DNA from: Phenylobacterium deserti
Lineage (GTDB): Bacteria; Pseudomonadota; Alphaproteobacteria; Caulobacterales; Caulobacteraceae
Length of the DNA stretch: 35,003 nucleotides
Direction: 5' to 3'
Assembly (NCBI GenBank): GCA_945859865.1
Contig: CAMAOY010000010.1
Coordinates: 1 to 35,003, forward strand
The translations under genes and the position numbers were made by a program. Below, in pieces: positions 11,367 through 15,410 of the stretch. Numbering within the stretch: position 1 is the stretch's first letter; each line of letters starts with the position of its first letter. The notes below the pieces were generated by a model that saw only the letters and a list, made by a program, of their open reading frames with translations, had not been told where the DNA came from and searched no databases.

Positions 11367-11428
11367 TCCCCGTCCGTCCGGCCCCCGGGGCTGGACGGCC
11401 CGGCGGCGATGGGCTACGGACCCAGCCC

Positions 11429-11506
11429 ATGTTCCGTCAGGTTCATCATCACCGCCTCCACCATCCGACCTGTGAAAGCGGGAGCGGGCGAGTGCGTTCG
11501 GCCTGA
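11429..11506 (+). CDS. Putative histidine-rich leader peptide (25 aa) of the hisS-hisZ-hisG operon
   Basis: ATG TTC CGT CAG GTT CAT CAT CAC CGC CTC CAC CAT CCG ACC TGT GAA AGC GGG AGC GGG CGA GTG CGT TCG GCC TGA = MFRQVHHHRLHHPTCESGSGRVRSA*; 5 His in 7 codons. Confidence 0.75.
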   Translation: MFRQVHHHRLHHPTCESGSGRVRSA

Positions 11507-11558
11507 TCGAACCTCCGGCGCCGGCCCCCGCGCAATGCGGACGGGCCCGGCCGGCGGC
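11452..11558 (+). promoter_or_regulatory. Candidate his attenuator: mutually exclusive RNA segments 1:2, 2:3 and 3:4
   Basis: 1:2 = CCGCCTCC (11452-11459) with GGAGCGG (11481-11487); 2:3 = CGGGAGCGGGCG (11479-11490) with CGCCGGCCCCCG (11519-11530), 10/12 pairs; 3:4 = CGCCGGCC (11519-11526) with GGCCGGCG (11549-11556). Confidence 0.6.
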
Positions 11559-11588
11559 TCCGTCCCTGGCAAACCCAAGGGATAGGAA

Positions 11589-13112
11589 ATGACCACCTCC
11601 ACGACTGACATCGTCCCCAACAGGGAGACGCCCCGCCCCGAAGCCCGACCTGAGGTCCGACCCGAGGCCCGCGCCCCCCGCGGCTTCATGGACCGGCGCG
11701 CCCGCGACCTGGCCACCGAGCGCCGCATCCTGACCCGCGTTTCCGAGGTCTATGAGCGTTACGGTTTCGAGGCCCTCGACACCGGCGCCCTGGAGTATGC
11801 CGACGCCCTGGGCAAGTTCCTGCCCGACGCAGACCGCCCGAATGAGGGCGTCTTCGCCCTGCAGGACGACGACGACCAGTGGATGGCCCTGCGCTACGAC
11901 CTCACCGCGCCCCTGGCCCGGTTCGTCGCCCAGAACCGCGAAGGCCTCACCAAGCCCTTCCGCCGCTACGCCTTTGGCCCGGTCTGGCGGAACGAAAAGC
12001 CTGGCCCGGGCCGGTTCCGAGAATTTACCCAGTGCGACGCCGATACGGTGGGTTCGGCCCGGCCCGAGGCCGACGCCGAGATCATCGCCATGGCCGCCGA
12101 GGGCCTGGCTGCCGCCGGCCTGCCCGAGGGCGGCTATGTCCTGCGGATCAATAACCGACGGCTCCTGAACGGCCTCCTCGAACGGGCCGGCGTGGCCGAC
12201 GAAGGCCAGAAGCTCGCCGTCCTGCGGGCGGTGGACAAGCTGGATCGGCTGGGTCCCGAGGGGGTCCGCCTGCTGCTGGGCGAGGGCCGCCGCGACGAGT
12301 CCGGCGCCTTCACCCGCGGGGCGGGGCTGGCCACCGCCGCCGTCGACTCCGTCCTGGCCTTCACCGCTGCCGGGGCCGGGGACCGGGCCGAGACCCTGCG
12401 CCGGATCGCCGACGTGATTGGCGGCTCGGCCGAGGGCGACGCCGGCCTCGCGGAACTGGCGGGCATAGACAAGGCCCTGGCCAGCATGGGCGTGGGCGCG
12501 GACCGGGCGGTCTTCGATCCGTCAGTGGTCCGAGGGCTAGAGTACTACACCGGCGCCGTCTTCGAGGCCGAGCTCCGGCTGGAGACCCTGGACGAGAAGG
12601 GCCAGCCCGCCCGCTTCGGCTCGGTGGGCGGCGGTGGCCGTTACGACGACCTGATCGCCCGCTTCACCGGCGAACGCACCCCGGCGACTGGGTTCTCCTT
12701 CGGCGTCTCCCGACTGGCGGCCGCCCTGCGCGCCGCCGGTCAGGACGCCGGCCAGCAGGCGAGGGGCCCCGTGGTGGTCATCGCCTTCTCCCCCGATGAC
12801 ATGGGCGCCTATTTCGCCGTGGCCGCCGAACTCCGGGCTGCGGGGATCGCCGCCGAGGTCTACCTGGGCGGCTCAGGCATGAAGGCCCAGATGAAGTACG
12901 CCGATCGCCGGCTCTCGCCTGCGGCTGTCATCCTTGGGGGTGACGAGATCGCCGCGGGAACCGTTACGGTGAAGGACCTCGACCTCGGCCGGGCCCTGGC
13001 CTCCGACGTCACCGACAACGCCGCCTGGCGGGCAGATCGACCTGGCCAGCAGACGGTCCCCCGGGACCAGGTGGTCGCCGTCGTGCGGCGCATCCTCGGA
13101 GACGCGCCGTGA
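11589..13112 (+). CDS. hisS: Histidyl-tRNA synthetase (divergent alphaproteobacterial type)
   Basis: Class II aaRS motifs: RRYAFGPVWRNEKPGPGRFREFTQCDADTVGS, RGLEYYTGAVFEAEL, GGGGRYDDLIARFTGERTPATGFSFGVSRL. Confidence 0.93.
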   Translation: MTTSTTDIVPNRETPRPEARPEVRPEARAPRGFMDRRARDLATERRILTRVSEVYERYGFEALDTGALEYADALGKFLPDADRPNEGVFALQDDDDQWMALRYDLTAPLARFVAQNREGLTKPFRRYAFGPVWRNEKPGPGRFREFTQCDADTVGSARPEADAEIIAMAAEGLAAAGLPEGGYVLRINNRRLLNGLLERAGVADEGQKLAVLRAVDKLDRLGPEGVRLLLGEGRRDESGAFTRGAGLATAAVDSVLAFTAAGAGDRAETLRRIADVIGGSAEGDAGLAELAGIDKALASMGVGADRAVFDPSVVRGLEYYTGAVFEAELRLETLDEKGQPARFGSVGGGGRYDDLIARFTGERTPATGFSFGVSRLAAALRAAGQDAGQQARGPVVVIAFSPDDMGAYFAVAAELRAAGIAAEVYLGGSGMKAQMKYADRRLSPAAVILGGDEIAAGTVTVKDLDLGRALASDVTDNAAWRADRPGQQTVPRDQVVAVVRRILGDAP

Positions 13113-14245
13113 TCCAGGAGCCGCCCTTCCCCGCCGATGGTCTCGAAGCCCTCCGCGCGCCCTTCCGCCAGACCGGTGCCATCTGGGTCCAGCCACCCAT
13201 GTTACAGCCTCTGTCCCTGGTGCTTGACCTCGCCGGAGAGGCTCTTCGCTCCCGGCTCTTCGTCCTGCAGGCGGCCGCCGGCCAGGAGGTCTGCCTGCGT
13301 CCCGACTTCACCGCGCCTGTCGCGCGCCTGCACCTGGCCTCGGGCGCGGCCGGAGGCGACTATGCCTACGAGGGCCTGGTCTTCCGCGCCTCCGAGGACG
13401 AGGCGGAGGAAGTCCTGCAGATCGGGATCGAGCGGTTCGCCGCTGCCAGCGACCGGCCCGCCGACGATGCCGACCTGGTGGACTTGCTCTGGCGGGCCGC
13501 TATGGCAGGAGGGCGCGGCGACCTTTCCCTCCGGTTGGGCGACGCCGGCCTGTTTCCCGCCTTCCTTGACGCGCTGGGCCTTCACCCGGCCCAGGCCTCG
13601 CGGCTGACCCGCATGGCGGGACGCCCCTCCCGGCTCGCCGCGGAGCTGGAGCGGAACGGGCAGGCGAAGGATCGGTCCGGAGCGGGGGAGGGCGTCCTGT
13701 CCGGACGCCTCGCCGCCCTGCCCCCGGAAGAGGCCTCCGCCCTCCTCGAGGAAGTCTGGACCCTCGCCGGGATCACCCCGGTCGGAGGCCGCACCGCCGC
13801 AGAGATTGCAGCTCGCCTGGTCACCCGCTCGGAAGCCTCCCGCGCGCCGGCCCTGTCGCCCGGACAGGTCGAGGCTGTCCGGGCCTACCTATCCGTCAGC
13901 GAGGCCCCGCGGGCGGCGTTGGCGCAGATTGCGGGCCTGGCACCCCCCGCCGCCGCCCTTCGGGCGCGCCTGGCGGAATGGGAGCGCCGACTGGACCGGA
14001 TCGAGGCCGCCTCGGTGGGCGCCGCGCCGGCCGTCTTCGATGCCGCGCCCCGAGGCGACTTCGCCTATTATGACGGCCTCGTCATCGAGGTCGTATCGGA
14101 AGCCCTCGGCCCGGCGCGTCCCGTCGCGGTGGGAGGGCGCTATGACAGCCTGCCGGCCCGGCTCTCCGGCGGGTCCAATGGCGGCGGATCGGCGCTCGGA
14201 GGTATGATCCGGCCAGGCCGGGCCTTTGTGGAGGTGGGACAATGA
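13109..14245 (+). CDS. hisZ: ATP phosphoribosyltransferase regulatory subunit (HisS paralogue)
   Basis: HisRS-like fold: RLFVLQAAAGQEVCLRPDFTAPVARLHL, YAYEGLVFR, FAYYDGLVIEV, VGGRYDSL, lying between hisS and hisG; GTG start overlaps the hisS stop. Confidence 0.9.
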   Translation: MIQEPPFPADGLEALRAPFRQTGAIWVQPPMLQPLSLVLDLAGEALRSRLFVLQAAAGQEVCLRPDFTAPVARLHLASGAAGGDYAYEGLVFRASEDEAEEVLQIGIERFAAASDRPADDADLVDLLWRAAMAGGRGDLSLRLGDAGLFPAFLDALGLHPAQASRLTRMAGRPSRLAAELERNGQAKDRSGAGEGVLSGRLAALPPEEASALLEEVWTLAGITPVGGRTAAEIAARLVTRSEASRAPALSPGQVEAVRAYLSVSEAPRAALAQIAGLAPPAAALRARLAEWERRLDRIEAASVGAAPAVFDAAPRGDFAYYDGLVIEVVSEALGPARPVAVGGRYDSLPARLSGGSNGGGSALGGMIRPGRAFVEVGQ

Positions 14246-15198
14246 GCGACCCCCTGATCCTGGCCATACCGTCCAAGGGACGCCTCAAGGACCAGGTCGA
14301 AGCCTGGCTCCAGGACTGCGGCCTCGGCCTCGCCATGAGCGGGGGCGATCGCGGCTACAGGGCGCGTCTGCGCGGCGCCGAAGGCGTCCAGGTCCGCCTG
14401 CTCTCGGCGGGCGATATCGCCGAGGCCCTTGTGGCCGGGGATGTCCACCTGGGCGTCACCGGCGAGGACCTCCTCGGGGAACAGGGGCCGGGGTCCGCCG
14501 AGGCGACCCTCCTGCTCCGTCCCCTCGGCTTCGGCCGGGCCGACCTCGTGGTCGCTGCCCCCCGCAGCTGGCTCGACGTGTCCGTCATGTCCGACCTGGA
14601 GGACGTGGCCCATGAGCGACTTGTCCGTACCGGCCGCCGGCTGAGGGTGGCGACCAAGTACCTGGCCCAGACCCGTGAATTCTTCGCCCGCCACGGAATC
14701 GCCGACTACCGGATCGTCGAGTCGGGGGGTGCCACCGAAGGCGCCCCGGCCGCCGGGGTCGCCGACATCATCGTCGACATCACCACGACGGGGGCTACCC
14801 TCCAGGCCAATGACCTGAAGATCCTGGAGGACGGCGTCATCCTGAGGAGCCAGGCCCACCTCGCCGCCGGCCTTCGGGCCGACTGGACCCCGGAGGGGCT
14901 CACCGCCGCAGAATCGTTGATCCGGATCTTCGAGGCCCGGGCTGCTGCCCACGCCTCGGCCACCCTCATCTGGCCCGGTGGCGACGACGATCCGATCCTG
15001 CCCGCCCTTGAGGCCCTGGGGGCCGTCCGTCGGCCCAACGGCCTGCTGGCGCCGGTGGCCCTGGTCCCCCGGGTGGCGGAGCGTCTGACTTCGGCGGGAC
15101 GGGGTCCGGTTACCGCCTCCCGGCCGGACTTCGTCTTCGAGACGGCCTGTCCGCCTTGGGACGGGCTCCGGGCTGCCCTGAGAAAAACTGACAAATGA
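14242..15198 (+). CDS. hisG: ATP phosphoribosyltransferase catalytic subunit
   Basis: LILAIPSKGRLKDQ, DIAEALVAGDVHLGVTGEDLL, RVATKYLAQTREFF, VESGGATEGAPAAGVADIIVDITTTGATL; ATGA overlap with hisZ. Confidence 0.94.
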   Translation: MSDPLILAIPSKGRLKDQVEAWLQDCGLGLAMSGGDRGYRARLRGAEGVQVRLLSAGDIAEALVAGDVHLGVTGEDLLGEQGPGSAEATLLLRPLGFGRADLVVAAPRSWLDVSVMSDLEDVAHERLVRTGRRLRVATKYLAQTREFFARHGIADYRIVESGGATEGAPAAGVADIIVDITTTGATLQANDLKILEDGVILRSQAHLAAGLRADWTPEGLTAAESLIRIFEARAAAHASATLIWPGGDDDPILPALEALGAVRRPNGLLAPVALVPRVAERLTSAGRGPVTASRPDFVFETACPPWDGLRAALRKTDK

Positions 15199-15299
15199 GT
15201 CAGATAATTCCCGGTTCATCTGCACGGGCGGGCCTTGAAACAGGGCGGTGGTTGACAGGGTCGCGAATTTGACATCAATTCGCCCCAAGCGAGAGACAC

Positions 15300-15402
15300 G
15301 ACGGCATTCGACCATCGATCTCCGGCGTTTCGGGGAGGAAACGCCCTTCTAGATTCGGAGCTGCAGAGCTCAAGCAACCCGCCGCAAGGCGGGTTGTTTT
15401 TT
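15300..15402 (+). ncRNA. Candidate small RNA or structured 3'UTR with three stem-loops ending in an intrinsic terminator
   Basis: GGCGTTTC-ggggag-GAAACGCC (15324-15345), GAGCT-GCAG-AGCTC, then the terminator hairpin. Confidence 0.35.
15375..15402 (+). terminator. Strong Rho-independent terminator
   Basis: CAACCCGCC-GCAA-GGCGGGTTG-TTTTTT. Confidence 0.93.
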
Positions 15403-15410
15403 GCCTGACC

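Follow-up and report, generated by a model that had tools for sequence, protein, structure and literature searches.

How is the hisS-hisZ-hisG operon of Phenylobacterium deserti controlled, given that a short, histidine-rich open reading frame (ORF) lies directly in front of it? We addressed this question in a stretch of 35,003 nucleotides (in the following, the window) and in related loci. The ORF and the surrounding elements are the following:

11391–11418, + strand: candidate promoter, CTGGAC (11391–11396), 16 nt and GCTACG (11413–11418), read by eye, ending 10 nt before the leader ATG
11429–11506, + strand: His leader peptide ORF, MFRQVHHHRLHHPTCESGSGRVRSA and stop, kept in Phenylobacterium and Caulobacter, with no purine-rich Shine-Dalgarno sequence upstream
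11444–11464, + strand: putative regulatory codons CAT CAT CAC CGC CTC CAC CAT (five His of seven), equivalent to His columns 6–8 and 10–13 of the leader alignment
11589–13112, + strand: hisS, histidine--tRNA ligase (TIGR00442, 387 bits vs. a cut-off of 287)
13109–14245, + strand: hisZ, ATP phosphoribosyltransferase regulatory subunit, with a GTG start and overlapping hisS (NF008949, 399.5 bits, slightly below the cut-off of 420)
14242–15198, + strand: hisG, ATP phosphoribosyltransferase (TIGR00070, 163 bits vs. a cut-off of 76)

The leader ORF comprises 25 codons from an ATG at 11429 to a TGA at 11504–11506, with His codons at 11444–11452 and 11459–11464; the hisS ATG lies at 11589. We gauged the probability of such an ORF arising by chance from intergenic shuffles and from the window itself. 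None of 20,000 dinucleotide shuffles of positions 11367–11588 yielded an ATG-started ORF of 10–40 codons with five His in seven, and the leader is the sole example of a five-His-in-seven ORF on either strand of the 35-kb window. A search with a His-codon DNA pattern over six genomes gave matches scattered genome-wide, none of them at hisS. The His-rich leader, which had been noticed in a preliminary description of this DNA and which recurs in relatives (see below), is real. The three gene assignments made there are borne out by the family models listed above, and the RNA segments named there lie where they had been placed (CCGCCTCC, 11452–11459; GGAGCGG, 11481–11487; CGCCGGCCCCCG, 11519–11530; GGCCGGCG, 11549–11556; AGGTTCATC, 11439–11447; GATCGAACCT, 11505–11514). 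Just 3' of the hisG stop (15198), a match to the CrfA sRNA of the carbon-starvation response (RF01527, 41.2 bits) was found at 15289–15408 on the + strand.

For a comparison across relatives, as the preliminary description had proposed, 101 distinct hisS upstream regions from 110 loci were set in hisS orientation. By HisS identity (97%), the nearest named locus is that of a Phenylobacterium deserti MAG. An automatic rule that required three or more clustered His in a short ORF selected 63 regions; two of these ORFs (L081 and L100), which overlap the start region of hisS and resemble chance occurrences, were dropped. A His-rich leader is therefore found at the same place in 61 of the 101 distinct Caulobacteraceae hisS loci, each with at least four His, and follows the consensus MTRxAHHHGHHHHPTxxGxxRxRxA-stop. 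These loci belong to Phenylobacterium, Caulobacter and related genomes, across which the short ORF and its clustered His are conserved; the Brevundimonas and Asticcacaulis hisS loci examined are devoid of this leader. Aligning the leaders reveals two invariant His columns (8 and 13) and four almost invariant ones (6, 7, 11 and 12); CAC and CAT are both used at several His columns, and all alignment gaps are whole codons. Variability at the three codon positions is 0.24, 0.28 and 0.32, respectively; the third is only slightly the highest, as expected because the RNA is constrained as well. A Gly inside the His run and a Pro-Thr after it are conserved in the peptide, and further residues beyond the run vary in a region in which the RNA segments are preserved. 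Presence of the leader goes along with gene order, as hisZ directly follows hisS in 60 of the 61 leader-bearing loci vs. 9 of the remaining 40; in the lone exception (L086), a contig end cuts hisS. The conserved His ORF and its linkage to hisSZG support the earlier proposal that a His leader peptide in front of this operon would sense charging of histidyl-tRNA.

How translation of the leader might begin is suggested by its upstream sequence. In the window and in relatives, the leader ATG lacks a purine-rich Shine-Dalgarno sequence, and most relatives carry a GCTATA(G)-like element about 10–17 nt upstream of this ATG. Support for this promoter is weak for the window taken alone, since a generic sigma-70 scan of the window finds none at the leader. 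Based on the −10-like element, the absent Shine-Dalgarno sequence and the analogy to the trpL leader of S. meliloti, which is a leaderless ORF (PMC10117765), the simplest reading is that the transcript probably starts at the leader AUG.

Within and downstream of the leader ORF, the RNA contains five segments with alternative partners:

11478–11490, + strand: segment 2, GCGGGAGCGGGCG, located within the leader ORF; duplex 2:3, −24.6 kcal/mol
11519–11531, + strand: segment 3, CGCCGGCCCCCGC, with a conserved CCCCGC core; partner, segment 2 or 4
11537–11547, + strand: segment 4, GCGGACGGGCC; partner, segment 3 or 5; its column 99 in alignment A1 covaries with column 129
11556–11569, + strand: segment 5, GGCTCCGTCCCTGG; partner, segment 4 or 6
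11575–11587, + strand: segment 6, CCAAGGGATAGGA, the hisS ribosome-binding region, paired with 11559–11569 in the proposed OFF state, which is the fold with segment 4 occupied; duplex 5:6, −14.5 kcal/mol

A MAFFT alignment of 51 sequences (A1) displays as conserved motifs the CCCCGC core of segment 3, GCGGAYGGGG in segment 4 and CCRTCC in segment 5; segment 6 is located at the start site. In A1, 93.5% of helix 4:5 is paired. Column pair 99:129 of this helix is either U-A (27 sequences) or C-G (23 sequences), without any mixed state, a distribution that needs at least five switches on the HisS tree and leaves only two independent pairs when well-supported branches alone are counted. For helix 3:4, pairing amounts to 90.3%, and both partners have changed at three of its pairs. 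The columns of 5:6 do not beat shuffles on A1, a count that is uninformative because the 3' end of this alignment is misaligned; support for 5:6 comes instead from an alignment-free swap test, in which the pairing of a segment with its own partner was compared to that with partners taken from species less than 70% identical. In this test, own partners outperformed swapped partners for 3:4 (−21.0 vs. −19.3 kcal/mol; p = 7.5e-6), 4:5 (−19.1 vs. −17.3 kcal/mol; p = 4.5e-7) and 5:6 (−10.5 vs. −9.0 kcal/mol; p = 1.4e-5), with Wilcoxon p values that ignore relatedness and are uncorrected for kinship; for the control pairings 3:6, 1:4 and 2:6, own partners were no better than swapped ones. Pairing 2:3 is strong (−24.7 vs. 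−19.6 kcal/mol for shuffled sequences) and exhibits no coevolution in the swap test, as expected for a pairing inside the codon-constrained coding region. As judged by comparison among relatives, 3:4, 4:5 and 5:6 make up a conserved, coevolving cascade, in which segment 6 comprises the ribosome-binding site and the start of either hisS or a preceding short ORF.

These results modify the RNA architecture drawn in the preliminary description. Its logic of 2:3 vs. 3:4 is supported, and relatives share pairing 2:3 as well as the 3:4 core. The conserved core, however, joins CCCCGC to GCGGAYGGGG, and the 3:4 arms originally drawn are a clade-specific outer extension. The covariation expected there for 1:2, 2:3 and 3:4 is borne out as coevolution of 3:4, but does not extend to the other two pairings. 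Pairing 1:2 had to be abandoned (own −18.0 vs. swapped −17.2 kcal/mol; p = 0.12; no covariation), as had an exclusive AGGTTC/GAACCT pairing, whose first arm is not conserved and reads GCGCAC in most relatives. Conserved pairings 4:5 and 5:6, which had been missed, tie the switch to the hisS ribosome-binding site. Two further candidates also failed the swap test; a visually plausible hairpin that spans the leader stop codon was no better with own than with swapped partners, and for segment 4 with CCATCCG of the leader own pairs were weaker than swapped ones.

Where, then, would the output of the switch lie? The locus combines clustered cognate codons in a short ORF with mutually exclusive downstream pairings, as in an attenuator, and lacks the 3:4 hairpin with a following U-tract that characterizes the hisL type. 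A terminator search of the window found none, and at least five T in the 8-nt stretch after 3:4 were present in only 4 of 51 relatives. An intrinsic terminator after 3:4 is thus absent from the window and rare in relatives, and for these reasons the 3:4 hairpin is not the output element that it had originally been taken for. The earlier remark that this hairpin lacks a clear U-tract was correct, and the fallback suggestion of translational control of hisS is now supported by the coevolving pairings 4:5 and 5:6, which reach the hisS ribosome-binding site. In Caulobacter and in the clade of the window, segment 6 coincides with the start of hisS. Many Phenylobacterium species instead have, at segment 6, the beginning of a 20–30 codon ORF or of an in-frame N-terminal extension about 50–100 nt before the usual hisS start, so that control of hisS there would operate via coupling or an alternative start. 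Loci L006–L028 and similar Phenylobacterium loci bear a second −10-like element, TAAGCG, right before the usual hisS ATG and downstream of the segment-6 ORF or extension; it resembles an element before hisS in genera without the leader. In these Phenylobacterium loci, an attenuated and a second, unattenuated leaderless hisS transcript may coexist.

Computational folding of relatives is in line with a switch of this kind. On average, when segment 3 was occupied, 4:5 formed (0.79) and the start codon was 0.33 paired; when segment 4 was occupied, 5:6 formed and the start codon was 0.68 paired. The ribosome-binding region was more paired with segment 4 occupied than with segment 3 occupied in 47 of 48 species. 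With a masked ribosome at the stop codon, 3:4 and 4:5 averaged 0.71 and 0.03, respectively, vs. 0.37 and 0.32 with the ribosome at a His codon. For the window alone, equilibrium folding with a masked ribosome gave no shift between the stalled and the released state, 3:4 staying at 0.71. The 4:5 helix of the window has lost one G compared to sister species (−15.1 vs. a mean of −19.1 kcal/mol) and still reaches 0.56 when segment 3 is taken. Given the lack of an equilibrium shift and the weakened 4:5 helix, a switch in the window could only be kinetic, and such a co-transcriptional mechanism is possible.

From sequence comparison and folding models, we consider it likely that the leader works as a ribosome-mediated attenuator, with charged tRNA-His as its signal and translation initiation of hisS-hisZ-hisG as its main target. 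We infer the following order of events. When histidyl-tRNA is scarce, a ribosome initiating on the leaderless transcript would stall in the His run, leaving segment 2 free to pair with segment 3; with 2:3 formed, segment 4 would pair with segment 5, and the hisS ribosome-binding site (segment 6) would be free, turning the operon ON. When histidyl-tRNA is plentiful, the ribosome would reach the stop codon and cover segment 2, such that 3:4 would form, segment 5 would pair with segment 6 and initiation at hisS would be blocked (OFF). As the operon encodes both the synthetase, HisS, and the committed enzyme, HisZ-HisG, one charged-tRNA signal would feed back on both.

Other readings have to be weighed against this proposal. 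In classical transcriptional attenuation, 3:4 would end transcription, intrinsically or via Rho, and 4:5 or 5:6 would be side effects. Leaders found with the same covariance model before other genes (thrS, L146/L147; L144; asd, L148; GNAT acetyltransferase, L153/L157; see below) do bear a U-rich stretch after 3:4, so the hairpin can be a terminator elsewhere, and ribosome-free leaders could be targets of Rho. However, the window has no terminator-like site, the T-rich stretch is confined to the 4 of 51 his leaders mentioned above, and 4:5 and 5:6 show coevolution that reaches the start of hisS, a feature not required by termination alone; we thus regard this reading as rather unlikely. It is most improbable that the region is a conserved non-regulatory 5' leader, or a site of plain translational coupling without histidine sensing. 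The failure of the window's own fold to switch at equilibrium would fit such a reading, but seven conserved His columns, the coevolving alternative pairings and the absence of the His ORF from most loci without hisZ after hisS speak against it.

The ORF could also encode a functional His-rich micropeptide, for example a metal-binding one, that does not act in cis. Its sequence is conserved, including the Gly in the His run and the Pro-Thr after it, and action in trans is known for the leader peptide peTrpL (PMC7298713). We nevertheless deem this very unlikely, since residues past the His run vary where the RNA segments are preserved, the peptide goes with hisSZG linkage, and the corresponding position in another family of the order is occupied by an unrelated His6 peptide, MNTxLHHHHHH. 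Finally, the region might mainly be an antisense or trans-acting small RNA with an incidental His ORF. CC3513 (Rfam RF01528), which reportedly stems from Landt 2008, occupies the same DNA in Caulobacter as this leader, but is filed as an sRNA on the strand opposite hisS. In four of five loci searched, it matches that strand over the leader (L049, 1224–1397; L054; L012; L008), with up to 134.7 bits and at or above the gathering score in Caulobacter and other Phenylobacterium loci. The window, in contrast, is below gathering, the reverse complement of the CC3513 consensus itself encodes MARKPHHHGHHHHPTSPRGIGRVRSL followed by a stop, and the His codons are conserved with synonymous changes. In addition, G-U wobbles in helix 4:5 favor the hisS strand (38 vs. 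2 on the other), while wobbles in 3:4 and 5:6 do not discriminate between strands. We therefore find it scarcely credible that the region is mainly such a small RNA; CC3513 is probably mis-stranded and really this leader, the alternative being a true antisense RNA.

The proposed attenuator shares features with several known systems. As in enterobacterial hisL, a leader peptide with His codons precedes histidine genes, and the position of the ribosome would select between exclusive RNA pairings. Unlike in hisL, the first gene is hisS rather than hisG of a full operon, a U-tract is missing, the additional segments 5 and 6 would carry the output to the start site, and the leader is probably leaderless; the Rfam His_leader model has no match at gathering in the window, nor at E<=5 in five hisS loci including that of the window. 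The hisS*/hisZ attenuators of Bacillus likewise place a His-codon leader before hisS and hisZ paralogs, but are premature transcription terminators in Firmicutes, and the same study notes that Firmicute leaders lack sequence similarity to proteobacterial ones (PMC2965389). S. meliloti trpL/rnTrpL is also an alphaproteobacterial leaderless ORF starting at AUG, as we infer for the present leader, but has Trp codons, targets trpE and has been described as a transcription attenuator that releases an sRNA (PMC7298713, PMC10117765). Leader-peptide attenuation is known in Caulobacter from the ilv leader, which differs in its Ile/Val codons and Rho-independent terminator (PMC4117421). Access to a Shine-Dalgarno sequence is controlled by an amino-acid or tRNA signal, as proposed here, in the ileS T-boxes and the leuA LEU element of Actinobacteria, which are T-box or pseudoknot switches and not this cascade (PMC1262725). 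Our literature search, whose scope did not extend to key predictive papers, found no description of a Caulobacterales hisS leader. Attenuation of operons for amino acids and aminoacyl-tRNAs has reportedly been predicted by Vitreschak 2004 and Lopatovskaya 2010, where some such leaders may already appear.

How far does the architecture extend? A covariance model of the kind suggested in the preliminary description, built from A1 and searched over sampled genomes, finds the leader at 60–111 bits in each of the 12 genomes sampled from the window's genus. Beyond that genus, it also detects the leader in the Caulobacter-like genus g22 (18 genomes) and in a single genome of g6. Weak matches (25–40 bits) are non-random. 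Many are leaders before asd (e.g. MSFAATKTITRKTTHLGGAAGVRAI and stop), including in Brevundimonas and a second family of the order; others lie before thrS (MHRVAHLCTTTTTTTRFGGPDGVVMR and stop) in distant Alphaproteobacteria and before a GNAT acetyltransferase gene, these gene names being assigned from protein starts rather than by family search. The asd leaders in Caulobacter, Brevundimonas and other Alphaproteobacteria (L152, L154–L156, L158–L167, L170, L148, L150) are Thr/Lys/Ile-rich ORFs with a similar RNA architecture. They resemble SEP5 of Sinorhizobium, a Thr/Lys-rich small ORF in the 5' UTR of an aspartate-pathway gene, which has been suggested as a leader peptide, with no structure given (PMC10117765). 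Thr-rich leaders before thrS (L141, L146, L147), one with seven consecutive Thr codons, combine a similar architecture with U-rich stretches, and of the leader ORFs before a GNAT acetyltransferase gene (L153, L157, L169), L153 and L157 have a true-looking terminator. In folding, pairings similar to 4:5 and 5:6 are seen in the thrS and several asd and GNAT leaders, and in some of these a U-tract follows 3:4. Compared to shuffles, 4:5 has z-scores of about −3 to −0.6 in nine leaders with a correctly located hairpin, and the shared pairings are therefore suggestive only.

Different His-rich ORFs accompany hisS elsewhere. In family f2 of the order, 13 of 15 genomes have MNTxLHHHHHH(A/S/V)-stop before hisS, and the sequence and structure downstream of it are different; a conserved TTGACTT...TATCC promoter accompanies these loci (L178, L206, L211, L212, L215, L216, L218, L222, L224, L225, L228–L230, L232). 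No His leader was found before hisS in the samples of families f3, f4 and f5 (34 genomes). In a small, AT-rich alphaproteobacterial genome (L197, 1275–1459), a His-rich ORF, MKNIVLNHTHHHTHAKHGLGN and stop, and a tRNA-His gene (1383–1459) lie between tRNA-Phe and hisS-hisZ-hisG.

We tentatively raise the possibility, to which we would give somewhat less than even chances, that these leaders form a modular alphaproteobacterial family. A leaderless ORF with exchangeable codons (His for hisS, Thr for thrS, Thr/Lys for asd) would feed a shared 2:3/3:4/4:5/5:6 cascade controlling translation start, and in some members 3:4 would double as a terminator, such that one signal would act at two levels. 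The present findings suggest that translation start, and not termination, is the target of some amino-acid attenuators in GC-rich Alphaproteobacteria, and terminator-based searches would therefore miss them. For the Caulobacteraceae, including the model organism Caulobacter, the leader would provide a specific feedback by histidine; the synthetase responsible for charging the sensed tRNA would be part of its own regulatory loop, together with the committed enzyme of the pathway.
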